A DNA stretch of 64,000 nt from Roseovarius sp. (GTDB taxonomy: Bacteria; Pseudomonadota; Alphaproteobacteria; Rhodobacterales; Rhodobacteraceae), in the NCBI GenBank assembly GCA_029212365.1, contig JARGOC010000008.1, positions 62,001 to 126,000 of the forward strand. The letters are read 5' to 3'. This document shows positions 36,020 through 61,154 of this stretch, piece by piece. Made by a program: the position numbers and the translations under genes. The notes beneath the pieces were generated by a model. That model saw only the letters and a list, made by a program, of their open reading frames with translations. It made no database searches and had not been told where the DNA came from. Position 1 is the first letter of the stretch; every line of letters starts with the position of its first letter.

Positions 36020-36190
36020 TGCAGCATCCTGTCCGTCATGAGCCATGAATCACATCCCTTTATCGTCCCTGGTCTTCTACCCACTTTGCAGATGCGGCGC
36101 AACTATGCTGCTGGTGCAACAAAAAATATTGCCGAATATTGCGTGCTGTTTTTGCCCTTCCAGGGCCTCGTGATGTTGCTATGTAGGGGT

Positions 36191-36958: not shown

Positions 36959-36964
36959 CTTTGG

Positions 36965-39790: not shown

Positions 39791-39820
39791 GGTTGGCGGG
39801 GTCCTGATGAGAGTTATTTT

Positions 39821-40011: not shown

Positions 40012-40020
40012 TCAAAACTC

Positions 40021-41184: not shown

Positions 41185-41189
41185 GGGGC

Positions 41190-42596: not shown

Positions 42597-42611
42597 TGGT
42601 TTGATCTCCGT

Positions 42612-43148
42612 TCAGCGCGTTTCAAAGACGCTCATGTTGTATCCGTTAAACTCCAGCACCTCAGAGGCCGCGGTCATCCGGTCTGCGCCACCCGAGGTCT
42701 TGCGATCCACAATGAAGGCCATGTCACTATCGGGAGACCCAAGTGCTGCGGTGCGATACCCCTCGTCAATCCAAATCACCCACATCTCCATTTCGGTGTC
42801 GGTGGTTTGTGCCGTCAATTGCCAACGGTTCTGGGCCAGAGGCTCGGCCTGCCAATCATCGCTCAGTGCCTCGCAATTGCCATCCGCATCACAACTGGCG
42901 TGCAAGAACTCAAGCGTGTGCTGCGGTTTGGCGTTGGTGTTGAAGGTGAGGCTCTGAATGTCGCGGTATTGCGGCGAAGACGCCCGCACTTTCCATTCGC
43001 CCTGCATCGCGTCGGCTCCGCCGCGACTGATGATCGACAAAGGCACCGTGGGATTGCGCAGCAGACTGGGGTCATCAGGCGCGGGGGCTGTCAGGCACCC
43101 GATCAACAGGGCAGGGGCCAGACATGCGATTGCGCTGCGCAAGATCAC
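42612..43148 (-). CDS. Lipoprotein of unknown function in the carnitine operon (lipocalin-like pattern)
   Basis: A 178-residue protein with a lipobox LLIGC (C18) after a hydrophobic N-terminus. The rest is mainly short strands with aromatic residues (GEWKVRASSPQYRDIQSL, MEMWVIWIDEGYRTAALG, ADMAF-like end), consistent with an eight-stranded lipocalin-type barrel. Two further cysteines (HASCDADGNCEAL) may form a disulfide. It lies within the carnitine operon, 15 bases before lcdH, and its start overlaps the upstream SDR gene by four bases. A ligand or substrate-capture role is a guess. Confidence 0.65.
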   Translation of the reverse strand: MILRSAIACLAPALLIGCLTAPAPDDPSLLRNPTVPLSIISRGGADAMQGEWKVRASSPQYRDIQSLTFNTNAKPQHTLEFLHASCDADGNCEALSDDWQAEPLAQNRWQLTAQTTDTEMEMWVIWIDEGYRTAALGSPDSDMAFIVDRKTSGGADRMTAASEVLEFNGYNMSVFETR

Positions 43149-43918
43149 GGTACCAGGCTTTCTGTGTGGCCATCGACAGCCATGATTTGACCCGAGATTT
43201 TTGAGGCCGCAGCCGAGGCCAGAAACAGCGCCATGTCGGCCAGATCATCGGCGCTGACCCAAGACCGCAGGCTGACACCTTTCACATAGGTCTGACGCAG
43301 CTCTTCTATCGGCTTGCCTGAGGCGGCGGCCTCATTGGCCAAAACGCGCTCCATCCGCTCGCCCTCAACTGCGCCCGGTGCAATCGCGTTGACGCGCACA
43401 CCTGCGGGGCCAAGTTCACCAGCCAGGGTTTTGGTTAATCCAACAAGGCCCCATTTGGCCGTCGCATAAGGCGAGCGCAGCGGATAGCCAAACAAGCCGG
43501 CCGTTGATGTGGTCAGGATAATCAGCCCGCTGCCCTGCGCGCGCATCAGCCGCGCCGCCCAACGACACGTCAGGAAAGTGCCAAACAGATTGACGCCGAT
43601 ACAGTCCTTCCAATCGTCATAGCCCATATCTTCTATCCGGCCCGCAGGCCCGCCGGTGCCGGCATTGGCGCAAACCACATCAACACCGCCCCAAGCGGTT
43701 TCAACCTCGCCCAGAAATGCGCCCATCTGGGCCTCATCTGTGACATCAGCCTGCCGGGCAATGAAATCGGGGTAATCGGCCTTAACCTGCGTCACAGCAT
43801 CGGCATCAGCATCACAAAGGGCGATTTGCGCCCCCTCGGCGGCAAAACGCCGTGCCAGCGTCAGCCCAATGCCCGCGCCGCCGCCGGTGATCAATACCCG
43901 GTGCTTCACGCAGGGCAC
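43145..43918 (-). CDS. Short-chain dehydrogenase/reductase (SDR) in the carnitine operon
   Basis: A 257-residue classical SDR with cofactor site TGGGAGIG (11-18), NAG (85-87) and the catalytic Tyr-Lys pair in YATAK (Y151, K155). D36 after the second strand points to NAD rather than NADP. Its position in the carnitine operon suggests oxidation of a carnitine-related alcohol; D-carnitine to 3-dehydrocarnitine is an attractive idea, because the fused L-carnitine dehydrogenase handles only the L form. This is inference. Its stop overlaps the lipoprotein gene start, and its start overlaps the next upstream exported-protein gene by 13 bases. Confidence 0.85.
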   Translation of the reverse strand: MPCVKHRVLITGGGAGIGLTLARRFAAEGAQIALCDADADAVTQVKADYPDFIARQADVTDEAQMGAFLGEVETAWGGVDVVCANAGTGGPAGRIEDMGYDDWKDCIGVNLFGTFLTCRWAARLMRAQGSGLIILTTSTAGLFGYPLRSPYATAKWGLVGLTKTLAGELGPAGVRVNAIAPGAVEGERMERVLANEAAASGKPIEELRQTYVKGVSLRSWVSADDLADMALFLASAAASKISGQIMAVDGHTESLVP

Positions 43919-44259
43919 CGGGCAAAGCGAACGGGATCATCAATCCCCCACCACATCCACAGCACATCGCCATCGGTCATCACCAATTGCTTTTCGTCGT
44001 ATGTGTCACCTTCGGATTGGCACGAAAGGGTCAGCACCCAGGCGTTCAGGCCCGGCAATTCCTGGGCCTCTGTGATATCGCAGCTGTTCTCATAACCCAG
44101 CATTTCCTGCGCGTTCAGTGCAATCGGGGCGGGCGTCACACTGCCGATCTGCGCGGCGTTGGCGCACCACGCTGGGTCTGCGCTCCAGATGCCGTGCCAG
44201 CCTTCGGCGATTGCGGCAGACGGCAGCAAAAGTGCGGCGGCCAGTGCAAGGCGGGTCAT
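43906..44259 (-). CDS. Small exported cysteine-containing protein, unknown function
   Basis: A 117-residue protein with signal peptide (MTRLALAAALLLPSAAIA, cleavage after about 18) and a mature part with four cysteines (WCANA, SCDITE, SCQSEG, FARCPA), likely two disulfides in the periplasm. Aromatic-rich segments WHGIWSADPAWC and LWMWWG stand out and could cage a quaternary ammonium group, as aromatic boxes do in betaine-binding proteins, but no family is recognised. It overlaps the BKACE gene by four bases and the SDR gene by 13 bases. Confidence 0.7.
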   Translation of the reverse strand: MTRLALAAALLLPSAAIAEGWHGIWSADPAWCANAAQIGSVTPAPIALNAQEMLGYENSCDITEAQELPGLNAWVLTLSCQSEGDTYDEKQLVMTDGDVLWMWWGIDDPVRFARCPA

Positions 44260-45167
44260 GACGTTGGCCCCCGTTTGGTCAGGCCCAGTTTTTTGCGCAC
44301 CTCATCGGGGCCAATCACCCGCGCGCCCAGGTTTTCAATGATAGTGGCGGCGCGTTCCACCAGTTGCCAGTTTTCGGCCAGCACACCGCGGTCCAGCATC
44401 AGGTTGTCCTCCAGTCCGACGCGCACATTGCCACCCGCCAGCACCGAGACGGCGACATAGGGCATCTGGCTGCGCCCCAGTCCAAAGGCCGAAAACGTCC
44501 AGTCATCCGGCACGTTGTTCACCATGGCCATAAAGGTGTTCAGATCATCAGGTGCACCCCAAGGTACTCCCATGCACAGCTGCACCAGTGCGGGGCTGTC
44601 CAACACGCCGTCTTTGACCAATTGCTTGGCATACCAAAGATGGCCGGTGTCGAATGCTTCGATCTCGGGTTTCACGCCCAGCTTGGTCATCATTGTGCCC
44701 ATCGCCGTCAACATTCCGGGCGTGTTTGTCATCACATAATCGGCTTCGGCAAAATTCATCGTGCCACAATCCAACGTGCAGATTTCGGGCAGGCACTCTG
44801 CGATATGTTCAACCCGCTCGGACGCCCCCACCATATCTGAGGTATCGGACAGGGGCAGGGGTGCCTCGGGCGCGCCAAAGATTATGTCGCCCCCCATCCC
44901 AGCGGTCAGGTTCAGCACCACGTCGGTGTCGGAGGCGCGAATGATTTCGGTCAATTCGCGGTACAGTTTGGGATCGCGCGAAGGGGCGCCGGTTTCAGGG
45001 TCACGCACATGGCAATGCACCACCGCCGCCCCGGCTTTGGCCGCGGCAATGGCGCTGTCGGCAATCTGTTGCGGCGAGCGTGGCACATGCGGGCTGCGAT
45101 CCTGTGTGCCACCTCCGCCAGTCACGGCGCAGGTGATGAAAACGTCGCGGTTCATTTCGAGCGGCAT
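44256..45167 (-). CDS. BKACE (DUF849) beta-keto acid cleavage enzyme, probable 3-dehydrocarnitine:acetyl-CoA trimethylamine transferase type
   Basis: A 303-residue TIM-barrel with the zinc-site motif VVHCHVRDPETG (HxH and Glu) and ITCAVTGGGG at the N-terminus, the hallmarks of beta-keto acid cleavage enzymes. In carnitine clusters this family splits 3-dehydrocarnitine with acetyl-CoA into betainyl-CoA and acetoacetate, consistent with the fused thioesterase of lcdH and with the divergent CdhR-like regulator. It is the first gene of the minus-strand operon; GAGGA lies six bases upstream of ATG 45167. Confidence 0.9.
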   Translation of the reverse strand: MPLEMNRDVFITCAVTGGGGTQDRSPHVPRSPQQIADSAIAAAKAGAAVVHCHVRDPETGAPSRDPKLYRELTEIIRASDTDVVLNLTAGMGGDIIFGAPEAPLPLSDTSDMVGASERVEHIAECLPEICTLDCGTMNFAEADYVMTNTPGMLTAMGTMMTKLGVKPEIEAFDTGHLWYAKQLVKDGVLDSPALVQLCMGVPWGAPDDLNTFMAMVNNVPDDWTFSAFGLGRSQMPYVAVSVLAGGNVRVGLEDNLMLDRGVLAENWQLVERAATIIENLGARVIGPDEVRKKLGLTKRGPTS

Positions 45168-45246
45168 GTGAGATCCTCGGAATAGCGTGGGGTGTTCTCA
45201 GCGTAACGCTCTGGCGCGAGTCGCCAGTTTGCAGTAACAGTCAAAG
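45168..45246. promoter_or_regulatory. Divergent promoter region of the carnitine operon and its regulator
   Basis: The 79 bases between the BKACE gene (minus) and the GlxA/AraC regulator (plus) must hold both promoters and the operator. No clear inverted repeat stands out by eye. Confidence 0.4.
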
Positions 45247-46197
45247 ATGATGCCGCAATGGACAAATCCGGATGCACCGCCTGTGCATATCGCACTGCTG
45301 ATATTTGATCAGTTCTCAAACCTGTGTCTGGCCAATTGTCTGGAGCCTTTGCGCGCCGCCAACACGCTGAACCGGTCCCCAATTTTTAGCTGGCAAATCC
45401 TGACTCATGACGGGGGTGCGGCCTTGTCTTCCAGTGCGATGCAAGTGTTGCCCCAGGCCGGCCTGTCGGATTTGGCCCCGTGTGATTATCTATTTGTATT
45501 GTCCAGCTACGGACATGAACACCACGACACCCCTGACACGCGCCGCGCATTGCGGCAGGCCTCGGCCAAGGCGCGCATCATTGTGGGGATGGATACCGCC
45601 CCGTGGTTGTTGGCCTCAGCCGGGTTGCTAGAGGGGCGGCGCGCCACGGTTCACTGGGACTTGTTGGATGGATTCAAGGAGCGGTTTTTGCAAGTCGAGG
45701 CAGAACGCAGTCGTTTGGTGCGTGATGGCCGGGTCATCACCTGCGCGGGTGCGATGTCGGCGCTGGATATGACCTTGGGGTTGATTGCCGATCACGCCGG
45801 GCTGGCCGCGCGGCTGGATGTAGAAGCGTTGTTCATGCAGGGCGATCCACCCGTGGATACGATCCATGCGCGTGGAACAGTAACAGACCCAACGGTGCGG
45901 CGTGCCTTGGCCTTGATGCGTGAAAACCTGGAAAAACCGCTAAGCCTGCTGGAGTTGTCGCGCCTGTTGTCGTGCCAATCGCGGACGCTTGACCGGCGTT
46001 TTCGCAGCCGTCTAGGCGCTCCACCCGGCACGGTGTATCGCCATTTACGCCTGTCATCAGCGCGCAAGATGCTAGAGGGCAGCACCCTAAGCGTGGCCGA
46101 AATTGCCCTGCGCAACGGGTATGAAAGTCCGGCTGCAATGGCACGGGCGATGAAGCGGTATTATGGTGTCACGCCATCCAGCCTGCGACTTGGATGA
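45247..46197 (+). CDS. cdhR: GlxA-family (DJ-1 + AraC HTH) regulator, CdhR-like
   Basis: A 316-residue regulator. Residues 12-190 are a DJ-1/PfpI-like ligand domain (VHIALLIFDQFSNLCLANCLEPLRAAN, CAGAMSALDMTLGLIADHAG). Residues 205-316 are an AraC helix-turn-helix pair (LSLLELSRLLSCQSRTLDRRF, SVAEIALRNGYESPAAMARAMKRYYGVTPS). The layout and position match CdhR, the activator of carnitine dehydrogenase genes in Pseudomonas. It is transcribed away from the carnitine operon, which it probably activates when carnitine is present. Confidence 0.85.
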   Translation: MMPQWTNPDAPPVHIALLIFDQFSNLCLANCLEPLRAANTLNRSPIFSWQILTHDGGAALSSSAMQVLPQAGLSDLAPCDYLFVLSSYGHEHHDTPDTRRALRQASAKARIIVGMDTAPWLLASAGLLEGRRATVHWDLLDGFKERFLQVEAERSRLVRDGRVITCAGAMSALDMTLGLIADHAGLAARLDVEALFMQGDPPVDTIHARGTVTDPTVRRALALMRENLEKPLSLLELSRLLSCQSRTLDRRFRSRLGAPPGTVYRHLRLSSARKMLEGSTLSVAEIALRNGYESPAAMARAMKRYYGVTPSSLRLG

Positions 46198-46276: not shown

Positions 46277-47422
46277 TTACAAAGCCGCGCGGAACAGCCC
46301 TTCGAGGTTTTCCTCGGTCAGCTCAATCGGGTTGCCGCCACAACTGGGGTCAATGATAGCACCCGCCACCAGATCGGGAATGCTGGCCTCGGTCACACCC
46401 ATATCAGACAGTTTGCGGGGGATGTTCATGCTGTCGTTGAACTCCTGCACAAAGGCGCAAAACCCATCGAACCCGCCCTGTACGCCAATGTAGGACGCCG
46501 CCCTGTCAAACCGATCGGCAATTACTGGCGCGTTGAATTCCAGAACGGCAGGCATACACACCGCATTGGTGGTGCCGTGATGAGTGTTGAAATGGGCCCC
46601 GATGGGGTGGCTCATGGCGTGGATTGCACCAAGCCCTTTTTGGAACGCCGTGGCCCCCATCGCGGCGGCTGACATCATGTTGGCCCGCGCCTCAATATCC
46701 GTGCCATCGCTGTAGGCACGCGGCAGGTTTTCCACCACCAGACGCATACCTTCCAAGGCAATTCCCTGGCTCATCGGGTGGTAATGCGGGCTGGAATAGG
46801 CCTCAACACAATGGGCAAAGGCATCAAGGCCAGTGCCTGCGGTGATGAACTGGGGCATGCCAACAGTCAGTTCAGGGTCACAGATCACAATTTCTGGCAA
46901 CACCTTGGGGTGAAAGATGATTTTTTTCACATGGCTGACACTGTCGGTGATCACTGATGCGCGGCCCACTTCCGAGCCGGTTCCGGCGGTTGTGGGCACT
47001 GCAATGATCGGTGCAATCACGTCGGCATTGGCACGGTTCCACCAATCGCCAATATCCTCAAAATCCCAGATGGGCCGCGTCTGACCGGCCATAAAAGCCA
47101 CCATCTTGCCCAGGTCCAAGCCAGAGCCGCCGCCAAAGGCTACAACGCCGTCATGGCCGCCAGCCTTATACGCGGCAACACCGGCGTTAAGGTTGACCTC
47201 ATTGGGGTTGGGATCGACCTGCGAAAACATCGCGCGCCCCAGCCCGGCGGCATCCATGATGTCCAGCGTGGCCTGGGTAACAGGTAGATCCGCCAACCCC
47301 TTGTCTGTCACCAGCAAGGGGCGTTTGATGCCCGCCTGAGCGCACGCTGCGGGCAGTTCTGCAATGCGGCCTGCGCCAAATTTCATCACTGTGGGGTAAG
47401 ACCAGTTTCCAGTCAGGCTCAT
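46277..47422 (-). CDS. Iron-containing (group III) alcohol dehydrogenase
   Basis: A 381-residue enzyme from ATG 47422. NAD-site GGGSGLDLGKMVAF and the metal-binding stretch MSHPIGAHFNTHHGTTNAV with three His are characteristic of Fe-ADH; TTAGTGSEV is also present. It would oxidise a primary alcohol or a hydroxylated substrate to the aldehyde. Its start overlaps the aldehyde dehydrogenase stop by four bases (ATGA), so the two enzymes probably act in sequence. It is the last gene of the minus-strand unit from the amidohydrolase gene. A hairpin (CTGCCC...GGGCAG near 46213-46231) follows beyond its end but without a T-run. Confidence 0.9.
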   Translation of the reverse strand: MSLTGNWSYPTVMKFGAGRIAELPAACAQAGIKRPLLVTDKGLADLPVTQATLDIMDAAGLGRAMFSQVDPNPNEVNLNAGVAAYKAGGHDGVVAFGGGSGLDLGKMVAFMAGQTRPIWDFEDIGDWWNRANADVIAPIIAVPTTAGTGSEVGRASVITDSVSHVKKIIFHPKVLPEIVICDPELTVGMPQFITAGTGLDAFAHCVEAYSSPHYHPMSQGIALEGMRLVVENLPRAYSDGTDIEARANMMSAAAMGATAFQKGLGAIHAMSHPIGAHFNTHHGTTNAVCMPAVLEFNAPVIADRFDRAASYIGVQGGFDGFCAFVQEFNDSMNIPRKLSDMGVTEASIPDLVAGAIIDPSCGGNPIELTEENLEGLFRAAL

Positions 47423-48801
47423 GATGTGACCTTTTTCATATGGTAAGATTTGGGACGTGTCAGATTGTGATAGCCGATAATCGACAGACCACCGCCACGA
47501 CCGGTGTCTTTGCACCCGGTCCAGCACAGGCCAGGATCGAGGTAATCCGCCCGGTTCATAAACACGGTGCCGGTTTCAATCTGATCACCCACGGTAGTGG
47601 CGCGCTCCAGATCAGCGGTCCATAGGCTGGCGGTCAGGCCAAACTGGCTGTCGTTCATCAGCTCAATCGCCTCGGCGTCGTCCTTGACGGGCATGATGCC
47701 CACGACTGGGCCAAAGCTCTCGTCGCGCATGACGCGCATATCGTGGGTGACATTGGTCAGGATCTGGGGCGTCAGATATGCGCCTCCATCATCCTCGGCA
47801 AAGGTCTCGATATGTGCTTTGGCACCGGCGGCGACAGCTTCGGCAATCTGCGCACGCACCTCGGCGGCAAACCGCACGTTGGCCATCGGGCCCATGGTTG
47901 TGTCCGGGTCCATTGGATTGCCCAGCTTATAGCCCTTCACAATCGCCACGGCCTTTTCAACAAAAGCGTCATACAGGCTTGCCGCCACATAAATCCGCTC
48001 AATCCCGCAGCAGCATTGCCCGGCATTAAACATCGCGCCATCAATCAGCGTGTCCACGGCGGCATCCAGATCGGCGTCATCCATGACATAGCCCGGATCC
48101 TTGCCGCCCAACTCCAGCCCGACACCGGTGAATGTACCTGCGGCGGCGCGTTCCATCGCCTTGCCGCCCCCAACCGAGCCAGTGAAATTCACAAAATCAA
48201 AGGCCCGCTCAGCAATCAGTGTCGACGTTGTGTCGTGATCCAGAAACACATTCTGGAACACATCCTCAGGCACGCCAGCCGCGATAAAAGCCCGCACCAT
48301 CCGCTCGCCCACCAACAGGGTTTGTGTCGCATGTTTCAACACCACCGTATTCCCGGCAATCAGGGCAGGGGCCACCGTGTTGATCGCCGTCATATAAGGA
48401 TAATTCCAAGGCGCCACGACCAGCACGACACCATGCGGCACCCGTTTGATATATCGCTTGAAAGTGGCATCCTCGCTCACCTCAACATCCGCCAATGCCT
48501 CCTCGGCTATGCCTGCCATGTGGCTGGCGCGTTCATTGAACCCGTCAAATTCACCGCCATAGCGCACCGGGCGCCCCATCATATGGGCCAACTCGGGCAC
48601 AATTTCATCGTTCATGGCCCCCACGGCGGCCACACCGGCCATCACCAGGGCCGTGCGTTCGCTCAACGGTCGTGCTGCCCAGGCCACCTGCGCTGCCCGT
48701 GCACGTGCAGCCACCTTTGCGGCGGCCTCGCCAGTCAGCGTTTCGCGCTCTGCATAAACCGATCCATCAATCGGCGAGATACATTTCAACATCTGCGTCA
48801 T
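47419..48801 (-). CDS. NAD(P)-dependent aldehyde dehydrogenase
   Basis: A 460-residue ALDH with APWNYPYMTAINTVAPALIAGN, the catalytic Glu in LELGGKDPGYV and the catalytic Cys in FNAGQCCCGIERIYV (one of three consecutive Cys). The three cysteines in a row are uncommon. It is coupled to the Fe-ADH gene (ATGA overlap) and lies 82 bases after the glutamine-synthetase-like gene; that gap carries repeat copy 5. Together with the Fe-ADH it would take an alcohol to a carboxylate. The substrate is unknown. Confidence 0.9.
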   Translation of the reverse strand: MTQMLKCISPIDGSVYAERETLTGEAAAKVAARARAAQVAWAARPLSERTALVMAGVAAVGAMNDEIVPELAHMMGRPVRYGGEFDGFNERASHMAGIAEEALADVEVSEDATFKRYIKRVPHGVVLVVAPWNYPYMTAINTVAPALIAGNTVVLKHATQTLLVGERMVRAFIAAGVPEDVFQNVFLDHDTTSTLIAERAFDFVNFTGSVGGGKAMERAAAGTFTGVGLELGGKDPGYVMDDADLDAAVDTLIDGAMFNAGQCCCGIERIYVAASLYDAFVEKAVAIVKGYKLGNPMDPDTTMGPMANVRFAAEVRAQIAEAVAAGAKAHIETFAEDDGGAYLTPQILTNVTHDMRVMRDESFGPVVGIMPVKDDAEAIELMNDSQFGLTASLWTADLERATTVGDQIETGTVFMNRADYLDPGLCWTGCKDTGRGGGLSIIGYHNLTRPKSYHMKKVTS

Positions 48802-48832
48802 AGCGCCCTCATCTTTTCAAAAGCAGCAAGTC

Positions 48833-48867
48833 CATCTTCTTGCCAAAAATATCCCCGCCGGAGGCAT
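48833..48867. repeat. Interspersed intergenic repeat, copy 5
   Basis: Contains CATCTTCTTGCCAAAAATAT and CCCCGCCGGAGGCATCC, nearly identical to copy 1. It sits in the gap between the ALDH gene and the glutamine-synthetase-like gene, both minus strand. Confidence 0.7.
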
Positions 48868-48883
48868 CCGGACGGTGCAACCC

Positions 48884-50239
48884 TCACGCCAGCTCAAACC
48901 CGCGCGCCACTTCGTAATCCGTGACGATACGATCAAACTCTTCCAGCTCCCACTCGGCCGCACGGGCATAGTGATCCACCACGTCATCGCCAAAGGCCGC
49001 GCGCAGCATGTCCGACCCCTTAAGGGTCTCGCGGGCATCACGCAGGTTTTGCGGGATCATACCGCTGTCGCCTTGATACGCATCGCCAACTGTGGGCGGG
49101 GCCAGTTCAAGCGCCTCTTCAATCCCGGCGATCCCGGCGGCGATTTGCGCGGCCATTGCCAGATAGGGGTTCAGATCCGACCCACCGACACGGCACTCCA
49201 CCCGGATCGCCTTGGACCCGGTGCCACACAGCCGGAAACCAGCGGTGCGATTGTCCACCGACCAGATCGTTCGCGTGGGCGCAAAGCTGCCTTTTTGAAA
49301 CCGCTTATAGCTGTTCACATAAGGCGCCAGAAAGTAGGTGAAATCGGGGGCGTATTTCAACAAGCCTGCCATATATGTTTTCATCAATGTGCTCATGCCC
49401 AGCTTGTCATCCGGGTCGTAAAACACCGGCGCGCCATCTTTCCACAAGGATTGATGCACATGGCTGGAGGACCCAACCTTGTCATGGTGCCACTTGGGCA
49501 GAAAGGTCACCGCATGGCCTTGCTGATAGGCGATTTCCTTGATCGCGTGTTTGGCAATCGTGTGGTAATCGGCCGTATCCTGTGCCGCGGCATATTTGAT
49601 GTTCAGCTCTTCCTGGCCGGTTTCGGCCTCGCCCTTGGAATTTTCAATCGGAATGCCCGCGTCCCACAGATGGTTGCGGATCGGGCGCATCACATGTTCC
49701 TCGCGTGAGGTTTGAAGGATGTGATAATCTTCATTGTATCCGCTGATCGGCTCCAGATCGCGAAAGCCTGATTTGCGGATGTCGTCAAAGCTTTTCTCGA
49801 ACAGAAAGAACTCCAGCTCGGTCGCCATCATGGCGTCAAAGCCCATGGCCTCCAGCCGCTTTAGCTGCTTTTTTAGCACTGCGCGTGGGGAATGGGGCAC
49901 ATCCTGGTGCGTGTGGTGATCCAACACGTCACACAGCACCATCGCAGTGCCTTCCAACCATGGGACCATACGCAATGTATCCAGATCGGGCTTCATCACA
50001 TAGTCGCCATAACCTGTTTCCCAACTGGTCGAGGCATAGCCATCAGGTGTCGCCATCTGCAAATCCGTGGCCAGCAGGTAATTGCAGCAATGGGTTTCTT
50101 CCCAGGCCCCGGCGATGAAATGCCCGGCATGAAAGCGCTTGCCCATCAACCGGCCCTGCATATCCACAAGGCAGACCAGAACGGTGTCAATCTCACCGGC
50201 CTCATATTTTGTTTTCAGCGTGTCAAAGCTCAGGGTCAT
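48884..50239 (-). CDS. Glutamine-synthetase-family ligase (gamma-glutamyl-amide synthetase type)
   Basis: A 451-residue GS-fold enzyme. ELEFFLFE (141-148) gives the metal Glu pair, GSSSHVHQSLW is the ATP/metal His region of the family (GSGMHVHQSLW in GlnA-like enzymes), and RVECRVGGSDLNPYLAMAA is the C-terminal Arg segment. Relatives of this length make gamma-glutamyl amides of amines (GlnT, PuuA, IpuC, gamma-glutamylmethylamide or ethanolamide synthetases) rather than glutamine, and no adenylylation-site Tyr is obvious. The neighbouring ADH, ALDH, TRAP and amidohydrolase genes support an amine/amino-alcohol role. It starts 105 bases after dctP, with a hairpin between. Confidence 0.85.
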   Translation of the reverse strand: MTLSFDTLKTKYEAGEIDTVLVCLVDMQGRLMGKRFHAGHFIAGAWEETHCCNYLLATDLQMATPDGYASTSWETGYGDYVMKPDLDTLRMVPWLEGTAMVLCDVLDHHTHQDVPHSPRAVLKKQLKRLEAMGFDAMMATELEFFLFEKSFDDIRKSGFRDLEPISGYNEDYHILQTSREEHVMRPIRNHLWDAGIPIENSKGEAETGQEELNIKYAAAQDTADYHTIAKHAIKEIAYQQGHAVTFLPKWHHDKVGSSSHVHQSLWKDGAPVFYDPDDKLGMSTLMKTYMAGLLKYAPDFTYFLAPYVNSYKRFQKGSFAPTRTIWSVDNRTAGFRLCGTGSKAIRVECRVGGSDLNPYLAMAAQIAAGIAGIEEALELAPPTVGDAYQGDSGMIPQNLRDARETLKGSDMLRAAFGDDVVDHYARAAEWELEEFDRIVTDYEVARGFELA

Positions 50240-50304
50240 GGCAAGATCCGTTATGGGGGCAAAAAATTCTTCATAGAATTTTGCAATTTTCTTGGAAAAT
50301 TCAT

Positions 50305-50326
50305 CCCCCGGCCGATAAACCGGGGG
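50305..50326. terminator. Hairpin between dctP and the GS-like gene
   Basis: A 7-bp GC stem CCCCCGG/CCGGGGG with an 8-base loop (50305-50326). On the minus strand it follows dctP and precedes the GS gene, with only ATGAATTTT after it, so it is a weak terminator or a processing/stability hairpin. A second AT hairpin (AAAATTC...GAATTTT, about 50257-50276) follows, then TTTGCCCCC. Expression of TRAP and enzymes could differ because of it. Confidence 0.55.
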
Positions 50327-50344
50327 ATAAATCAGACGTTACGA

Positions 50345-51379
50345 TCAGCCGTAGCGGTAGGGCCGTCCGGCTTTTTGCATATCGGCGTTGTATTTCTTGA
50401 ATATCTCTACAACTTTCGCCTTGGTTGGCGATTCCGCTGCGATTTCATCCCAGAACACCAACGCGGCGTCTTCGACCTGCTTCCATTCCGCATCCGGGAT
50501 CGAGGTCAGCTCCATCTTGGGGCCGTCCACGCGCAGGCTGGCTTCACCACCCCAATACCACCATTGGCGATAGTAGTGTGACTGGTCACAGCACACCCGG
50601 AACAGGGTTTGCAGATCTTCTGGCAGTGCGTTCCAACGCTCTTGGTTGGCAAAGAACGATCCCGCCCAGGCACCTGAGATGTTGTTGGTCAGGAAGTAGT
50701 TGGTCACATCCGCCCAGCCGACGGTGTAATCTTCGGTGATACCTGACCATGCAATGCCATCCAGCTCGCCGGTTTGAACGGCCACTTCGATGTCTTCCCA
50801 GGGCAGGGTCACGGGCACCACGCCAAACTGCTGCAAGAATCGACCAGCGGTGGGGAAGGTAAAGACGCGTTTGCCCTTCAGGTCCGCCAGTGAATTGATC
50901 GGATCTTTGGTGGCAAAGTGGCAAGGATCCCATGCACCGGCGCTGATGTGTTTCACGCCGACTTTGGAATATTCCTCGTCCCAAATCTCATTCAAACCAT
51001 ATTGGTTGAACAGAACCGGCACATCCAGGCTGTAACGTGAGGCAAACGGAAAATAGCCGCCAAACACGGTGACTTCGGTGGGCGATGCCATGGAATCATC
51101 ATCCGATTGCACCGCATCAATCGTGCCGTTCTGCATAGCACGGAACAATTCACCCGTTGGCACCAGCTGATCGGCAAAGAACAATTCGATCTGCATCCGG
51201 TCGCCAGCGATTTTGTTGAACATATCAATCGCAGGCTTGATGACGTGCTCGGCCAGCGCCGGGCCAGCATAGGTTTGCATGCGCCATGTGATTTTGTCCT
51301 GCGCCAAGGCAGGGGTTGCCAATGGGGCAGCCAATGCGCCGACACCAGCGGTTTTCAGAAACTTACGTCTTGTTGTCAT
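50345..51379 (-). CDS. dctP: TRAP transporter substrate-binding protein DctP (Tat signal)
   Basis: A 344-residue periplasmic binding protein with an N-terminal twin-arginine signal (TTRRKFLKTAG ... ATPALAQ, cleavage near residue 27). KITWRMQTYAGPAL and the QLVPTGELFRAMQNGTIDA segment are typical of DctP, and the sequence resembles the TakP type that binds 2-oxo acids or related carboxylates. It supplies the DctM/DctQ permeases encoded upstream on the same strand. Its ligand is unknown and could be the amine or amino-alcohol derivative used by the enzymes downstream. Confidence 0.92.
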   Translation of the reverse strand: MTTRRKFLKTAGVGALAAPLATPALAQDKITWRMQTYAGPALAEHVIKPAIDMFNKIAGDRMQIELFFADQLVPTGELFRAMQNGTIDAVQSDDDSMASPTEVTVFGGYFPFASRYSLDVPVLFNQYGLNEIWDEEYSKVGVKHISAGAWDPCHFATKDPINSLADLKGKRVFTFPTAGRFLQQFGVVPVTLPWEDIEVAVQTGELDGIAWSGITEDYTVGWADVTNYFLTNNISGAWAGSFFANQERWNALPEDLQTLFRVCCDQSHYYRQWWYWGGEASLRVDGPKMELTSIPDAEWKQVEDAALVFWDEIAAESPTKAKVVEIFKKYNADMQKAGRPYRYG

Positions 51380-51427
51380 ATCGTCTCTCCTTGATGAAAT
51401 GGGGCCCCGTCATGAGGCTCTTCTTGG

Positions 51428-52750
51428 TTATTTTCCGTACACATAATCGGGCAGCCACAATGCGATCTGAGGAAACATCATCACCAGGCTCAGCGCCACA
51501 ACCATCACCAGTGCAAACGGGATGATTGAAATATAGATATCTCGCAGGCCAATTTCAGGCGGGGCCATGGCGCGCATTAAAAACAGGTTATAGCCGAAGG
51601 GCGGCGTCATATAGGCAATCTGTGTCGTGATCGTATAGAGCACACCATACCAGATCAGATCAAAGCCCAACTCGCCCACCAGCGGCACATAAAGTGGCGC
51701 AACAATGACCAGCATCGCCGTGTCATCCAGAAATGTGCCCATCACGATAAAGCTGAGTTGCATCAGGATCAGGATCATCCATGGATTGAGGTTCAGCTGA
51801 TCGGTAAACAGGCTTTCAATCGCCTTCACCGCACCAAGCCCGTCAAAGATGGCACCAAAGCCAAGTGCCGCCAGAATGATCCACATGAACATACATGAGA
51901 TTGCCAAGGTGGAGCGCACCGAGGTTTCAAACACCGCGCGTGTCATGCGGCCTTTCACGACAGCGGCCAAAAACGCCGTCATCGCCCCAATGGCCGAGCT
52001 TTCAACCAGGCTGGTCCAGCCCTTCACAAAGGGCACCATCATCGCGGCAAAAATCACCAGCGGCAAAAGGCCCGCGCGCAACAGGCGCAGCTTTTCGGCC
52101 ATCGACACGTTGCGTTCTTCTTCGGGCAAGGGCGGGCCCAATTCGGGCTGCAGCCGGCAGCGCACATAGATATAAATGATGAACATCGTGGCCATCATCA
52201 GCCCCGGCACCACACCCGCCAGCCACAGCTGGCCCACGGGCTGGCGCGCGATCATCGCATAAAGCACCAGCACGACCGACGGCGGTACAAGGATGCCCAG
52301 GCTTGATCCGGCCTGAATTACCCCCGTGACCATGATCTTATCATAGCCGCGTCGCAGCAGCTCTGGCAGCGCAATGGTGGCTCCAATGGCCATGCCCGCG
52401 ACACTCAGCCCATTCATCGCCGAGATCAGCACCATCAACCCGATCGTGCCTATCGCCAGCCCGCCTTTGACCGGCCCCATCCAGACATGGAACATTTTGT
52501 ACAGGTCATCGGCGATTTTGCTTTCCGACAGCACATATCCCATGAAAATGAACATGGGCAGGGTCAGCAGCGGATACCATTTCATCAGCTTCATCGCGGC
52601 GGAAAACGGGATTTCCACGCCGCCTGTGCCCCACAAAAGCATCCCCGCAGCGGCCCCGACAAACCCAATGGCCCCAAATACGCGCTGCCCGGTCAGCAAC
52701 ATCAGCATCATGGATGCGAACATCAAAATGGCGATCATATCATAGGACAT
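51428..52750 (-). CDS. dctM: TRAP transporter large permease DctM
   Basis: A 440-residue multi-helix inner-membrane protein of the DctM/IT superfamily. Conserved regions SAAMKLMKWYPLLTLPMFIFMGYVLSES and VIQAGSSLGILVPPSVVLVLYAMIA are visible, with LDDTAMLVIVAPLYVPLV in the second half. It carries the Na+-coupled transport. Its start overlaps the dctQ stop by one base, and it lies 48 bases before dctP on the same strand. Confidence 0.94.
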   Translation of the reverse strand: MSYDMIAILMFASMMLMLLTGQRVFGAIGFVGAAAGMLLWGTGGVEIPFSAAMKLMKWYPLLTLPMFIFMGYVLSESKIADDLYKMFHVWMGPVKGGLAIGTIGLMVLISAMNGLSVAGMAIGATIALPELLRRGYDKIMVTGVIQAGSSLGILVPPSVVLVLYAMIARQPVGQLWLAGVVPGLMMATMFIIYIYVRCRLQPELGPPLPEEERNVSMAEKLRLLRAGLLPLVIFAAMMVPFVKGWTSLVESSAIGAMTAFLAAVVKGRMTRAVFETSVRSTLAISCMFMWIILAALGFGAIFDGLGAVKAIESLFTDQLNLNPWMILILMQLSFIVMGTFLDDTAMLVIVAPLYVPLVGELGFDLIWYGVLYTITTQIAYMTPPFGYNLFLMRAMAPPEIGLRDIYISIIPFALVMVVALSLVMMFPQIALWLPDYVYGK

Positions 52751-53370
52751 CAGATTGCCTCGCCTTTGATGCGGCCCAAATCACGAAACAACTCGGCCAG
52801 ACATTGCAGCAGCATCAGGAAAATACCCAGACACAACAGTGATTTTACCGGCCACAGGTATGGTCTCCACGCGGTGGAGCTGCGTTCAAGATGGCCAAGC
52901 TTTTCCCCAGTGGCATCAAACCCTTGGGTGAAAAGCGTGCGGATCAGATCGCCAAAAAACTCATAGGTGCCAACGTTGTACGGCTGCCCCAGTGAGTAGG
53001 CAAACGAACTCAGCCCGCCATACAGCAGCACCCCCAGATAGAACATCAAAAAGAACACGGTGAACGCATCCATCCATGCCTTTTGTTTGTCACTCCAGCC
53101 GCCATAAAACAGGTCCATCCGCACGTTTGACCCAAGCTGGATCGAATAGGGCCCGCCCAATACATAATAGGCGACCATGACAAACTGAGCGGTTTCCAGC
53201 GTCCAGTATGAAGGTGAAAAAAGCGTCTTAGAGATCGACGACCACAGCAATACCCCCACCAGCACAAAGATCAGATACATCGCAATGCGCCCGATAAACC
53301 GGTTCATCGCGTCAATCGCACGGATATAGGCCAACACAGGTTTAGGCATGTTTGCGGGCTCCTGCGTCAA
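52750..53370 (-). CDS. dctQ: TRAP transporter small permease DctQ
   Basis: A 206-residue four-helix membrane protein with the TRAP DctQ look: LIFVLVGVLLWSSISKTLF, YVLGGPYSIQLGSNVRMDLFYG (the family's inward loop with Asn/Arg) and a C-terminal helix. It partners DctM. It overlaps the amidohydrolase gene by 29 bases at its start and adjoins dctM at its end, so all are translated together. Confidence 0.9.
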   Translation of the reverse strand: MTQEPANMPKPVLAYIRAIDAMNRFIGRIAMYLIFVLVGVLLWSSISKTLFSPSYWTLETAQFVMVAYYVLGGPYSIQLGSNVRMDLFYGGWSDKQKAWMDAFTVFFLMFYLGVLLYGGLSSFAYSLGQPYNVGTYEFFGDLIRTLFTQGFDATGEKLGHLERSSTAWRPYLWPVKSLLCLGIFLMLLQCLAELFRDLGRIKGEAI

Positions 53371-54115
53371 GAAGGGTCAATGCAGGACGCAAAAGGGTGA
53401 GTAGCTCACTTGCCAGTTTGATTTGACCGTTGGTGTCGGCAATCAGATCATTGCGAATTTCGATCATCACATTCAACAGGCCGTTGGCCATGCCGTGAAC
53501 TTGCAAGGAGTGGGTGACACCATCCTCGGGCCCATAGGGGGCATTTCGCATCACTGCACGATGCTCAAGGGCGCTGGCTTGGGCCAACATAGCATCGGCC
53601 AGTCGCGCGTCTGTGTCGTGTAGAATGCCGATTTCAACCGCGCGCGGCATGCCGAAATAAACCGGCGTAAAGCTGTGAATCGTCACCAAAACACTGTCCA
53701 GCCCCTTGGCGGCGCGTGCCTGTAACAGGGCAGTGACCTCGGCACAGAATGGCACATAAATACCGTTTGTGCGGGCGTCACGATCCGCCTGTGTCAGGGA
53801 TTGGTTGCCCGGCACATCTGTCGTTTCAGACCGCGCGGGCATGGCGCTGGCGTCTTCGGGCGGGCGATTGCAATCATAGACCAACCTTGAGGTCAGCCCC
53901 GCCACAAAGGGAGCATCCAACGCCCGCGACAACTCAAGCGATACAGCGCGCGCACCCGGATCCCAGGCAATATGGCCGGTGCGATCGGCCTCGCTCAGCC
54001 CCAGCCCATCCAGCGCGTCGGGGATAAAACTGGACGCGTGTTCACACAAAAGCACGACGCCTCCACGGCCATCGGCGTTCAGCGTTTCAACCGCATCCGA
54101 TTCGTTGAATTGCAT
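53342..54115 (-). CDS. N-formylglutamate amidohydrolase-family protein
   Basis: A 257-residue zinc hydrolase of the HutG/N-formylglutamate type: LLCEHASSFIP with zinc His, DPGARAVS, RLVYDCNRPPEDASAMP and TIHSFTPVYFG. No hut genes are nearby, so formylglutamate from histidine is not an obvious substrate. Because it is coupled to a TRAP transporter and followed by a GS-like ligase, ALDH and ADH, release of glutamate from a gamma-glutamyl conjugate is a reasonable hypothesis. It is the first gene of this minus-strand unit, 138 bases from the divergent RpiR gene. Confidence 0.87.
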   Translation of the reverse strand: MQFNESDAVETLNADGRGGVVLLCEHASSFIPDALDGLGLSEADRTGHIAWDPGARAVSLELSRALDAPFVAGLTSRLVYDCNRPPEDASAMPARSETTDVPGNQSLTQADRDARTNGIYVPFCAEVTALLQARAAKGLDSVLVTIHSFTPVYFGMPRAVEIGILHDTDARLADAMLAQASALEHRAVMRNAPYGPEDGVTHSLQVHGMANGLLNVMIEIRNDLIADTNGQIKLASELLTLLRPALTLLDAGARKHA

Positions 54116-54253
54116 GCATCATCCCCATTTTGAAAAAATCTTTCCACAACGGGTAAATTCTGTCAATAATTATCCAAATCGATTTTCATGTGTGTATAAA
54201 TAAGCGGCACAACACCTGAAATCCATAGTCTGACGAGCCATAGGGGGGGCCAG
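54116..54253. promoter_or_regulatory. Divergent promoter region, amidohydrolase-TRAP unit / RpiR-ABC unit
   Basis: 138 AT-rich bases between the amidohydrolase gene (minus) and the RpiR gene (plus). The RpiR protein may bind here. No clear palindrome was identified by eye. Confidence 0.35.
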
Positions 54254-55129
54254 TTGACACAGCCAGCCACAACCGTCCGAGAGCAAATCCGCTCACAGTA
54301 TTCGGCTCTGACCCAATCAGAGCGCAAATTCGCCAATGCGTTGCTGGAGAACTATCCAAGTGCTGGTTTGGCCTCGATCACCGTTGTGGCCGAAACGGCA
54401 GGTGTGTCCACGCCCACAGTGGCGCGTATGGTGCAAAAGCTGGGGTTCAAAGGCTTTCCGCAGTTCCACAAAGCGCTTCTGACCGAACTACAGGCCAAAG
54501 TGTCCGGCCCCACGCAACGCCGCGCCAATTGGGTGAGCGATGCCCCGGAATCGCATTTGCTCAACCGGTTTTCACTGGCCGTCACACAAAATCTGGAGCG
54601 CACGTTTTCCCATGTGGAACGTGCCGCCTTTGATGATGCCGCAGCGCTGCTGGCCCAATCTGACCGCCGACTCTATGCTGTGGGGGGGCGTATTACCCGC
54701 GCTCTGGCTGATTATGCCTTCACCCATTTTCAGGCGATCCGGCCACGGGTGACACATATGACGTCATCTTCGGCGACATGGCCGCATTATGTGCTGGATA
54801 TGGTCGAAGGCGACATCCTGCTGTTGTTTGATATTCGTCGCTACGAGGCCAATTTGCTGCGTTTGGCCGAACTGGCCGTCGAGCGGGGCGTCAAAGTGAT
54901 CCTGGTCACTGATCAATGGACCAGCCCGATTGCAGATGTTGCGACGCATACATTCAATTGCTGGGTTGAAATCCCGTCAGCCTGGGACAGTAACATCGCC
55001 ACAATGCTGCTGCTGGAGGCGCTGATTGCCGCTGCCCAAGAAGAGCTGTGGCCCGACACCAAGGATCGCTATGAACGCCTGGATGAACTTTTCAGCCAGT
55101 CACGCCTTTTTCGAAAACCGCCAAATTAG
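54254..55129 (+). CDS. MurR/RpiR-family transcriptional regulator
   Basis: A 291-residue regulator starting at TTG 54254 with a GGGGGG stretch five bases upstream. Residues 1-80 are the RpiR helix-turn-helix (LTQSERKFANALLENY, ISTPTVAR-like VSTPTVARMVQKLGFKGFPQFHKAL). Residues 125-270 are a SIS sugar/ligand domain (VGGRITRALADYAF, LFDIRRYEANLLRLAELAVERGVKVILVTD). It precedes the ABC transporter genes by 109 bases and probably regulates them. RpiR proteins often sense phosphorylated metabolites; the ligand here is unknown. Confidence 0.88.
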   Translation: MTQPATTVREQIRSQYSALTQSERKFANALLENYPSAGLASITVVAETAGVSTPTVARMVQKLGFKGFPQFHKALLTELQAKVSGPTQRRANWVSDAPESHLLNRFSLAVTQNLERTFSHVERAAFDDAAALLAQSDRRLYAVGGRITRALADYAFTHFQAIRPRVTHMTSSSATWPHYVLDMVEGDILLLFDIRRYEANLLRLAELAVERGVKVILVTDQWTSPIADVATHTFNCWVEIPSAWDSNIATMLLLEALIAAAQEELWPDTKDRYERLDELFSQSRLFRKPPN

Positions 55130-55238: not shown

Positions 55239-56237
55239 ATGATGAAGTCACTTCTAAAACTGACGCGCCGCTCGGTGCTGGCGTCGGTGGCAGCCACATC
55301 TGTGATGCTGTCCGGCGGTATGGCCATGGCCATGGAAAAGGTGAAGGTCGCCGCGATCTACACCTTGCCGGTTGAACAACAGTGGATCAGCCGCATTCAT
55401 CTGGCATTGAACACCGCTGCCGAACGTGGCGATATCGAATATACATTCTCAGAAAACGTGGCCAACACGGATTACGAACGTGTCATGCGCGAATATGCCG
55501 AAGGCGGTGCGCAGCTGATCGTGGGCGAAGTATTTGGCCTTGAACGTGCTGCGCGCAAAGTGGCCAAGGATTATCCCGAAACGGGCTTCCTCATGGGGTC
55601 GTCCTTTGGTCCGGTAGCGCCCAACTTCTCGGTCTTTGACAACTGGATTCACGAACCCTCCTACCTGTCTGGCATGGCCGCAGGTGCGATGACCGAAAGC
55701 AACGTCATCGGTATGGTTGGCGGCTATGCCATCCCCGAAGTGAACCGCCTGATGAACGCCTTTATGGAAGGCGCGCGGGCCCAGAACCCGGATGTCAAAT
55801 TCATCGTGAACTTCATCGACAGCTGGTACGATCCCCCCAAAGCCAAGGAAAGCGCCTTTGCTATGATGGATGCCGGTGCTGACATCATGTACGCCGAACG
55901 CTTTGGCGTATCGGACGCGGCGGTTGAGCGCGGCGTAAAGGCTATTGGCAACGTGATCGACACCTCAGCCGATTATCCCGACACGATCCTCAGCTCAGCC
56001 ATCTGGCATATGGAGGCCACCATCGACAAGGCCATCGCCAATGTCGCAGGCGGATCATTCGAGGCCGCTGACTATGGTCAGTACAGCTTTATGGCGTATG
56101 GCGGTGGATCCCTGGTGATGGACGAAACCCTGGTGCCTGCCGATGTTATAACAGCGGTGCGTGCCAAAGAGGGCGAAATCATGGATGGGCTGTTCCGGGT
56201 GAACGTGAACGACGAACGCCCCGTTTCAGACAACTGA
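55239..56237 (+). CDS. BMP-family ABC transporter substrate-binding protein
   Basis: A 332-residue periplasmic binding protein of the Bmp/PnrA type, which bind purine and pyrimidine nucleosides. A signal peptide (to about residue 31, GGMAMA) carries no lipobox Cys, so it is a soluble periplasmic protein. IVGEVFGLERAARKVAKDYPETGFLMGSS and GMAAGAMTESNVIGMVGGYAIPEV are the family repeats. ATG 55239 and 55242 are both possible; GGAG lies 4 and 7 bases before them. It is the first gene of a Bmp-type ABC system. Confidence 0.92.
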   Translation: MMKSLLKLTRRSVLASVAATSVMLSGGMAMAMEKVKVAAIYTLPVEQQWISRIHLALNTAAERGDIEYTFSENVANTDYERVMREYAEGGAQLIVGEVFGLERAARKVAKDYPETGFLMGSSFGPVAPNFSVFDNWIHEPSYLSGMAAGAMTESNVIGMVGGYAIPEVNRLMNAFMEGARAQNPDVKFIVNFIDSWYDPPKAKESAFAMMDAGADIMYAERFGVSDAAVERGVKAIGNVIDTSADYPDTILSSAIWHMEATIDKAIANVAGGSFEAADYGQYSFMAYGGGSLVMDETLVPADVITAVRAKEGEIMDGLFRVNVNDERPVSDN

Positions 56238-56243
56238 TAGAAA

Positions 56244-56282
56244 AAGGAGGGGGCCGGCATATCGTTCCGGCCCCATCTGCCT
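56244..56282 (+). promoter_or_regulatory. Shine-Dalgarno bridged to the ABC ATPase start by a hairpin
   Basis: AAGGAG (56244-56249) is followed at once by an 8-bp GC stem, GGGGCCGG (56250-56257) and CCGGCCCC (56267-56274), with a 9-base loop. Then come exactly eight bases (56275-56282) and the ATG at 56283. Without folding the SD is 33 bases from the ATG; folded, the spacing is about eight. The stem also sits where a 3' hairpin could stabilise the binding-protein mRNA. Confidence 0.6.
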
Positions 56283-57830
56283 ATGACATCCCAGACAGTT
56301 TTATCTCTCAAAGGCCTGTCCAAGCGGTTCGGGTCGGTGATCGCCAATGACGCGGTTGATCTTGACCTGTGCCAGGGCGAGGTGCTGGCCCTGCTTGGCG
56401 AAAACGGCGCGGGCAAAACCACGCTGATGAACATGCTCTTTGGTCATTACCTGCCCGATGCAGGATCGGTCGAGGTTGCAGGAGTTGACGGCGCGCTGAA
56501 CGCCCTGCCATTGGGCCATCCGCAGGCCGCGTTGGCGGCAGGCATCGGCATGGTGCACCAACATTTCACATTGGCCGAAAACCTGTCGGTGATTGATAAC
56601 ATTATGCTGGGCGCCGAGCCTTTGCTGAGCCTGCGTCGATCTGGACGCGCCGCGCGCCAAAAGATCGAGGCGATCATGCAGCAAAGTGGGCTGAACGCGT
56701 CACTGGATACACGCGTCAGCCTGTTGTCCGTTGGCGAGCGCCAGCGGGTCGAAATCCTCAAGGCGCTGTACCGTGATGCCCGCATTCTGGTGCTGGATGA
56801 ACCCACGGCTGTGCTGACGCCACAAGAGGCGGACGCATTGTTTGAAAACATCGGTGCGATGACCAATACCGGCTTGTCGGTGATCTTCATTTCCCACAAA
56901 CTGCGCGAGGTGCTGGCCTTTTCCAACCGCATTGCTGTGCTGCGCCACGGGGTCAAAGTCGGTGAAATGGCCACATCTGACGCGGATGAGGCCGCGATTG
57001 CGCGCATGATGGTGGGGGCAGAAACCGCGCCCACTCAGCGCGCGCCGATGTCCCCCGGTGCCCCGGTGCTGCGGCTGGAAAACGTCGATGTGCACGGGCA
57101 ATCCAACCGCGATCGGCTGCGCGGCGTCACGCTGGATGTGCATGCGCATGAAATTCTGGGCATCGCAGGTGTGTCAGGAAACGGCCAGTCGGCGTTGGCT
57201 GGCCTGATCTCGGGGCTTGTCCAGGCCGATGCGGGACGAGTGAGCGTGGGGGACACAACCGTGACCCGCGCGCATCCCCTTGACATGATCCGCGCCGGTG
57301 TGGGCCGCATCCCAGAGGATCGCCATCATGACGGCATCGTTGGCGCGATGTCCATGGCCGAGAACATGATAATCGAACGTCTGGACGATCCCGAAGTTCA
57401 ATCCCGCGGGCTGATGAAACATGAGGCCATCGTGGCCAATGCTGAACGGTTGGCGCAGGAGTACGACGTGCGTGGCCCCGGCGTGGAAGCCCGCGCAAGG
57501 CTGCTGTCTGGCGGGAATATCCAAAAGCTGATTCTGGCGCGGGTGTTTGAGCAACACCCCAATCTGATCCTGGCCAACCAACCCACACGCGGCCTCGACA
57601 TGGGGGCTGCATCTGAAGTGGCGCGCCGCCTGATTGAGGCCCGCACACGCGGTGCTGGTGTGGTGCTGATCTCAGAAGACCTGGACGAAATTCTGAGTCT
57701 GGCAGACCGGATATTGGTGATCCACGAAGGCGAGTTGATCCAGGCCGACACCCGTGATCGCGCCGTCATCGGCCTGATGATGGCCGGAGAAACCGCACCA
57801 AGTGCACTCGCAACCGGAGAACCGGCATGA
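56283..57830 (+). CDS. ABC transporter ATP-binding protein (two ATPase domains, nucleoside uptake type)
   Basis: A 515-residue tandem ATPase of the type used with Bmp proteins. Domain 1 has Walker A GENGAGKTT (40-48), signature LLSVGERQRVEIL and Walker B ILVLDEPTA. Domain 2 has a degenerate Walker A (GVSGNGQSALAG), signature SGGNIQKLIL and Walker B LILANQPTRG, where Asp-Glu is replaced by Asn-Gln, so the second site is probably weak. The gene overlaps the first permease gene by four bases. The start is linked to the hairpin described before it. Confidence 0.93.
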   Translation: MTSQTVLSLKGLSKRFGSVIANDAVDLDLCQGEVLALLGENGAGKTTLMNMLFGHYLPDAGSVEVAGVDGALNALPLGHPQAALAAGIGMVHQHFTLAENLSVIDNIMLGAEPLLSLRRSGRAARQKIEAIMQQSGLNASLDTRVSLLSVGERQRVEILKALYRDARILVLDEPTAVLTPQEADALFENIGAMTNTGLSVIFISHKLREVLAFSNRIAVLRHGVKVGEMATSDADEAAIARMMVGAETAPTQRAPMSPGAPVLRLENVDVHGQSNRDRLRGVTLDVHAHEILGIAGVSGNGQSALAGLISGLVQADAGRVSVGDTTVTRAHPLDMIRAGVGRIPEDRHHDGIVGAMSMAENMIIERLDDPEVQSRGLMKHEAIVANAERLAQEYDVRGPGVEARARLLSGGNIQKLILARVFEQHPNLILANQPTRGLDMGAASEVARRLIEARTRGAGVVLISEDLDEILSLADRILVIHEGELIQADTRDRAVIGLMMAGETAPSALATGEPA

Positions 57831-58903
57831 TCCGTATTGAGCCTCGTGGCCGCACCACCAAAGCCCTCACCCTAGGCGTGCCGATCCTGTCGGCGATTGT
57901 GGCTTTGGCGCTGGCGGCCATCCCCTTGGCGTTTGCCGGGGCCAACATCGCATCGGCCTATGGCGAGATGTACAAAGGCGTCTTTGGGTCCCTCTTTGCG
58001 TTCTCAGAAATGCTCACCCGCGCCACGCCGCTGATTTTCACCGGCCTTGCTGCGGCTTTGGCGTTTCGCGCCAAGCTGTGGAACATCGGGGCCGAGGGCC
58101 AGCTATATTTGGGCGCCATGGCCGCCGTGACGGTTGGAACCGGGGTGTTTGACATCCCCGGTGTGATGCTGATCCCGCTGATCATCCTGATGGGCAGTGC
58201 GGCCGGGGCGGCTGGCATGGCGCTGCCTGCCTATCTGAAAACCAAATTTGGTGCGGATGAGGTGGTGACCACCTTGTTGCTGAATTTTGTCATTCTGATC
58301 TTCTTGCAAATGATGCTGGAGGGCCCGCTACAAGACCCAATGGGCCTTGGGTGGCCACAATCAGCGCCTATTCTGGAGCAAGGCATGTTGCCCACGCTGA
58401 TTGACCGGATGCGCCTGCATTCCGGGTTGATCATTGCGTTGATTGCGGCCGTGGTGGCGCAATTTATGCTGGCGCGATCAGTCTGGGGGTTCCGGCTGAG
58501 GGCGGTGGGCGAAAACGCCTCGGCGGCGCGCCATGCCGGCATAAGGGTGAAGCGCACATTGCTCAGCGTTGCAATCGTATCAGGTGCATTGGCCGGCATG
58601 GCCGGCGTGGGCGAAGTGGCGGGGCTAAAGGGGTATCTGACCGCCGATTTGTCGCCCGGCTTTGGCTATACCGGCATCGTTGTGGCGATGCTGGCGGGGC
58701 TGTCACCTGTGGGTGTTGTCATATCGGCCATATTCATCGCCTCGGTGTTTGTTGGTGCAGATTCAATGAGCCGCGCCATGGGCGTATCATCCTATCTGGC
58801 TGACCTTGTGGTCGCCATGTCGCTATTGTGTGTGCTGGTCGGCGGCTTTTTTGCGCGCTACCGCATCACCCGAGTGCGCCCCGTACAGGAGCAGGCATCA
58901 TGA
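57827..58903 (+). CDS. ABC transporter permease (nucleoside/nucleobase type), first
   Basis: A 358-residue integral membrane protein of the BPD_transp_2 type with about ten helices. GLAAALAFRAKLWNIGAEGQLYLGAM and GFRLRAVGENASAARHAGI are the permease signature regions. It is coupled at both ends: ATGA overlap with the ATPase and with the second permease. It pairs with the second permease to form the membrane channel. Confidence 0.92.
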   Translation: MIRIEPRGRTTKALTLGVPILSAIVALALAAIPLAFAGANIASAYGEMYKGVFGSLFAFSEMLTRATPLIFTGLAAALAFRAKLWNIGAEGQLYLGAMAAVTVGTGVFDIPGVMLIPLIILMGSAAGAAGMALPAYLKTKFGADEVVTTLLLNFVILIFLQMMLEGPLQDPMGLGWPQSAPILEQGMLPTLIDRMRLHSGLIIALIAAVVAQFMLARSVWGFRLRAVGENASAARHAGIRVKRTLLSVAIVSGALAGMAGVGEVAGLKGYLTADLSPGFGYTGIVVAMLAGLSPVGVVISAIFIASVFVGADSMSRAMGVSSYLADLVVAMSLLCVLVGGFFARYRITRVRPVQEQAS

Positions 58904-59844: not shown

Positions 59845-59857
59845 GAAAGGCCTACCC

Positions 59858-61144: not shown

Positions 61145-61154
61145 GGTTTTGCCC

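Follow-up and report, generated by a model that had tools for sequence, protein, structure and literature searches.

A probable further copy of the eto operon, predicted to process ethanolamine by gamma-glutamylation, in a Roseovarius genome

A run of seven minus-strand genes in Roseovarius sp. (positions 46277-54115 of the window, the 64,000-nucleotide stretch of contig JARGOC010000008.1 that we analysed) is almost certainly a further copy of the eto operon, whose pathway has already been described. In Phaeobacter (Roseobacter) sp. MED193 this operon spans MED193_10021 to 10056, consecutive locus tags encoding RpiR, GGAH, EtoV, EtoW, EtoX, ETAGA, GAADDH and GETADH (PMC10132767; statements drawn from this article refer to its accessible portions). 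The MED193 locus was recovered among the related loci that we compared (L017), and its eight genes have the same order and orientation as those of the window. The window proteins are 76% (RpiR), 61% (FGase, over 231 residues), 69% (DctQ), 70% (DctM), 93% (DctP), 81% (glutamine synthetase (GS)-family ligase), 83% (aldehyde dehydrogenase (ALDH)) and 86% (iron-containing alcohol dehydrogenase (Fe-ADH), over 381/381 residues) identical to their MED193 counterparts. The first-pass annotation of this DNA knew of no described pathway with precisely these genes, a claim that falls with the publication of the eight genes in identical order for MED193 (PMC10132767). Its proposal of tripartite ATP-independent periplasmic (TRAP) import, gamma-glutamylation, alcohol and then aldehyde dehydrogenation, and a hydrolase releasing glutamate agrees with the published MED193 assignment, and ethanolamine, one of its candidate substrates, is the published MED193 substrate (PMC10132767).

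By homology and gene order, every step of the pathway can be assigned in this genome. The TRAP system EtoVWX would import ethanolamine, and the GS-like ligase would join it to glutamate at the expense of ATP, yielding gamma-glutamylethanolamide. The Fe-ADH is expected to oxidize this amide to an aldehyde, which the ALDH would convert to gamma-glutamylglycine, and the FGase-family hydrolase may then release glycine and recycle the glutamate. We consider this logic of import, glutamylation, two oxidations and hydrolysis very probably right, with ethanolamine most likely the substrate and glycine and glutamate the products. In MED193, five proteins (GGAH, EtoX, ETAGA, GAADDH and GETADH) are raised on phosphoethanolamine, and EtoX is also raised under phosphate lack (PMC10132767). 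Purified MED193 EtoX bound ethanolamine with a dissociation constant of 7.9 uM by thermophoresis and did not bind phosphoethanolamine, phosphocholine, G1P or G3P (PMC10132767).

The seven open reading frames (ORFs) fill 46277-54115, and the gene run and families named in the first-pass annotation were borne out by Pfam, with every match (Fe-ADH, Aldedh, Gln-synt_C, DctP, DctM, DctQ and FGase) above its gathering score. In order of transcription, the operon encodes the FGase-family amidohydrolase (53342..54115; putative gamma-glutamylglycine amidohydrolase, GGAH of MED193), the small TRAP permease DctQ (52750..53370; EtoV), the large permease DctM (51428..52750; EtoW), the solute-binding protein DctP (50345..51379; EtoX), which carries a Tat signal, the GS-family ligase (48884..50239; putative ethanolamine gamma-glutamylase, ETAGA), the ALDH (47419..48801; putative gamma-glutamylacetaldehyde-amide dehydrogenase, GAADDH) and the Fe-ADH (46277..47422; putative gamma-glutamylethanolamide dehydrogenase, GETADH). 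For the Fe-ADH, 47422 is the most likely start (381 residues, MSLTGNW...) rather than 47527, because the ORF from 47527 takes in 35 more codons that lie inside the ALDH gene, and because the MED193 homologue aligns over 381/381 residues of the shorter form.

The choice of substrate is informed by the binding protein. Residues 26-343 of DctP match the solved chain 4uab with 638.6 bits, the next solved match scoring 70 bits; we take 4uab to be Csal_0678. In an alignment of solved chains, an Arg of chain 4yzz falls opposite Phe173 of the window protein, a column that, from its motif, we presume to be the Arg-147 carboxylate site; Phe173 is kept in 79/79 aligned homologues. Csal_0678 of Chromohalobacter salexigens lacks the usual carboxylate-binding Arg and binds ethanolamine (PMC4646407, in the part accessible), a ligand described in the available text of PMC5812351 as a particular surprise among those of TRAP systems owing to its positive charge. 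The window DctP is accordingly predicted, from this similarity, to bind ethanolamine. DctP homologues occur in 87 of the 149 genomes of the window's family, its own genome counted (E up to 1e-60), and EtoX-type binding proteins have already been reported to be widespread in the ocean (PMC10132767). Such a spread is consistent with these bacteria commonly drawing nitrogen and carbon from ethanolamine.

Conservation of the gene set was assessed in the best 80 of 586 confirmed stretches, chosen by DctP similarity and extending no more than about 10 kb from DctP and about 6 kb beyond the regulator start, with many shorter; a gene was scored as present if its best tblastn piece reached at least 60 bits. 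All seven genes and a divergent rpiR were found in the same order in 65 of the 80 loci, or 61 of the 69 that extend far enough in either direction, and in the 65 full-set loci the regulator gene lies divergently beside the hydrolase gene. The joint conservation that the first-pass annotation had named as a check on its proposal was thus found, and the arrangement is not a product of chance. Among the 15 failing loci, seven end too early on one side (L012, L037, L053, L059, L064, L069 and L087) and eight extend far enough (L009, L016, L044, L068, L075, L078, L080 and L081); matches are missing for the ALDH in L016, the Fe-ADH in L044 and the FGase hydrolase in L068. L009 retains the hydrolase gene and L080 the regulator gene, despite missing ligase, ALDH and Fe-ADH. 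Open frames for proteins of roughly 230-260 residues, with no family assigned, lie between DctM and DctP in L022, L049 and L056, and L031 and L071 have similar-sized gaps there.

Residues of the enzymes were compared across 79 DctP, 74 GS, 72 ALDH, 69 Fe-ADH and 73 FGase rows, leaving out homologues that had no 60-bit match or whose translated piece contained a stop. ALDH C264 and E230, which we take to be the catalytic residues, are present in 70/72 and 71/72 homologues, the remainder being gapped. Fe-ADH D200, H204, H272 and H281/H282 are kept in 67/69 homologues with two gapped, the first three presumably being metal ligands; H277, listed as a possible ligand, is variable. The FGase hydrolase matches the solved chain 2odf (Atu2144) with 259.6 bits, and R221 and N222 vary in 3/73 and 2/73 homologues. 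For the ligase, the best solved match is 5dm3 (821 bits), deposited as L-glutamine synthetase and assumed by us to be the C. salexigens neighbour of Csal_0678. A Phe of the ligase aligns with the Glu in the PGFEAP stretch of the genome's best GlnA, presumably the ammonium-site flap Glu.

The family names invite a different account, in which glutamine is the product of the GS-like protein, the hydrolase acts as a standard N-formylglutamate deformylase and the genes around them are unrelated. Only those names point to it, and conservation of the eight-gene order argues against it. The genome gave seven GS-family matches, which correspond to six genes because one gene was matched in two pieces; the window ligase shares 24-29% identity with the five other proteins, one gene elsewhere gives a stronger Gln-synt_C match of 445 bits, and the ligase stays under the cut-off of each of the four NCBIfam models that it matched, which include glutamine synthetases and gamma-glutamylputrescine synthetase. 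On these scores and identities we rejected glutamine synthesis. As for the hydrolase, the genome has four FGase-family matches, one of which is separated by about half a kilobase from the genome's sole urocanase match, on contig 31; the likely hut hydrolase is therefore a different gene, and a hut function for the window hydrolase was rejected. The earlier statement that hut genes are absent holds for the neighbourhood and fails genome-wide. We regard the glutamine and deformylase account as wholly improbable. EutB, of the ethanolamine ammonia-lyase route, had no match in this assembly, which is 95.66% complete; an E. coli control was positive.

Two further alternatives keep a pathway and change its substrate or its partners. 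The same logic might serve mainly a different small amino alcohol, for instance 2-amino-1-propanol or 3-amino-1-propanol, and ethanolamine would then be a secondary ligand. The solved binding protein has two PDB entries with one sequence, 4uab and 4xf5, of which 4xf5 presumably holds 2-amino-1-propanol, and among NCBIfam models the Fe-ADH best matches one for 4-hydroxybutyrate dehydrogenase, at 357 bits where the cut-off is 500. Against this substrate stand the rise of the MED193 orthologues on phosphoethanolamine and the affinity of EtoX for ethanolamine noted above (PMC10132767), and we judge it improbable. The operon could also branch off from the carnitine-type cluster next to it (41-46 kb) and act on a methylated amine or amino alcohol. 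Genes for a 3-hydroxyacyl-CoA-dehydrogenase/thioesterase fusion, a BKACE enzyme and a GbdR-like regulator lie within about 5 kb. On the recovered stretches of the 80 loci, neither the fusion nor the BKACE enzyme has a homologue above 150 bits, and the GbdR-like gene alone was matched, in three loci (L026, L039 and L041). These genes are not kept beside the operon, so the link was rejected, and we give this branch next to no credence.

Returning to the eto assignment, several points weigh against it. Five of the 80 loci (L009, L075, L078, L080 and L081) have transporter genes with no ligase, ALDH or Fe-ADH gene nearby, so EtoVWX can occur without adjacent pathway genes. Selection of loci by DctP says little about more distant relatives, and the hydrolase is just 61% identical to MED193 GGAH. 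The roles of the enzymes on glutamylated intermediates appear to be assignments rather than results of enzyme assays, in this genome and, as far as the accessible part of PMC10132767 goes, in MED193, for which the pathway figure is labelled 'predicted'. The finding is an ordinary one that can help annotation. In two annotated plasmid records, from Ruegeria sp. B32 and Paracoccus denitrificans PD1222, the same eight genes go under generic names (glutamine synthetase family, N-formylglutamate amidohydrolase), though the pathway has been described.

Our analysis adds two features to the known operon: a candidate RpiR operator over a possible -10 element, and the insertion of a Na/Pi-cotransporter-family gene in the operon at seven Ruegeria loci. 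The divergent RpiR/SIS-family regulator (54254..55129, plus strand; Pfam HTH_6 and SIS) is probably a repressor of the operon, relieved by ethanolamine or a pathway intermediate. Between its gene and that of the hydrolase, a candidate promoter and operator at 54131..54166 (minus strand) consists of TTGACA and the inverted repeat TGGAAAGATTTTTTCA, which lies 20 bases after the TTGACA start and overlaps a possible -10 (AAAGAT). We compared 73 regulator-hydrolase intergenic regions, those of 72 loci and the window, which are related and not independent; TTGACA is present in 69. Scanning 18-22 bases after the TTGACA start with spacers of 2-5 bases, we found the repeat at 19-21 bases, allowing up to two mismatches, in 35 of these 69 regions, the window included, against 2% at random anchors; it was not seen at that threshold in the other 34, L008, L026 and L084 among them. 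A spacer of four at 20 bases characterizes 18 regions, including that of MED193, and a spacer of two at 21 bases characterizes 13, including that of L020. Anywhere in the region, the spacer-4 form occurs with at most one mismatch in 19 of the 73, against 0.1 expected from shuffles, and has at least three mismatches in 45. The motif was picked after viewing frequent words, so the shuffles and random anchors are post hoc controls. The exact combined promoter-operator pattern occurs once in the 4.03 Mb genome. The candidate operator is thus common, and not universal, in the locus set. The accessible part of PMC10132767 describes no operator and names RpiR only in the legend of Fig. 5, twice.

In seven of the 80 loci, all from Ruegeria (L020, L033, L043, L054, L060, L063 and L067), a Na/Pi-cotransporter-family gene lies between EtoX and the ligase, an assignment made by Pfam on L020 and by similarity to L020 for the other six. 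The L020 insert (11184-12869) is a Na/Pi-cotransporter and PhoU-domain gene, and L100 has a partial match to it at the same place. This insertion suggests a link to phosphate from phosphoethanolamine. A combined model, which we offer tentatively and regard as rather doubtful, would have RpiR repress through TGGAAA-(2 or 4)-TTTCCA over the -10 element until released by a glutamylated intermediate, with some Ruegeria having captured the phosphate-transporter-family gene and so tied ethanolamine use to phosphoethanolamine phosphate.

On the side of the Fe-ADH gene, 34361-46197 holds an apparent carnitine/acyl-CoA cluster with the fusion, the BKACE enzyme, an ATP-grasp acyl-CoA synthetase-like protein and the GbdR-like regulator, together with an SDR and with acyl-CoA dehydrogenases, these last two assigned solely by eye; the carnitine reading assumes that the fusion is carnitine dehydrogenase-like. 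On the other side, facing the regulator, 55239-62753 carries Bmp/PnrA-type ABC transporter genes, an amidohydrolase and a GlpD-like FAD oxidoreductase. We rejected the Bmp-type ABC operon (55-61 kb) as part of the system, with no homologue of its Bmp protein, ATPase, permease or amidohydrolase above 150 bits on the recovered stretches of the 80 loci, which reach roughly 6 kb past the regulator start at most.

The proposed pathway resembles known systems to differing degrees. In Streptomyces coelicolor, GlnA4 has been demonstrated to be a gamma-glutamylethanolamide synthetase, and the step order proposed there matches ours: an alcohol dehydrogenase step and an ALDH follow the synthetase, and an enzyme of the formylglutamate-amidohydrolase family is the proposed last step (PMC6529630, in its accessible part). 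That system differs in its dehydrogenase, short-chain according to a figure legend, and in having one putative ethanolamine transporter gene, with no TRAP transporter named in the same accessible text (PMC6529630). An in silico pathway prediction for C. salexigens, cited in that article, shares the glutamylation logic (PMC6529630), and the window binding protein matches 4uab along its whole mature length. The MED193 eto operon has other neighbours, the window regulator also facing the Bmp-type ABC transporter operon, which has no match on the recovered MED193 stretch; its eight genes, their order and their strands are shared with the window, at 61-93% protein identity.

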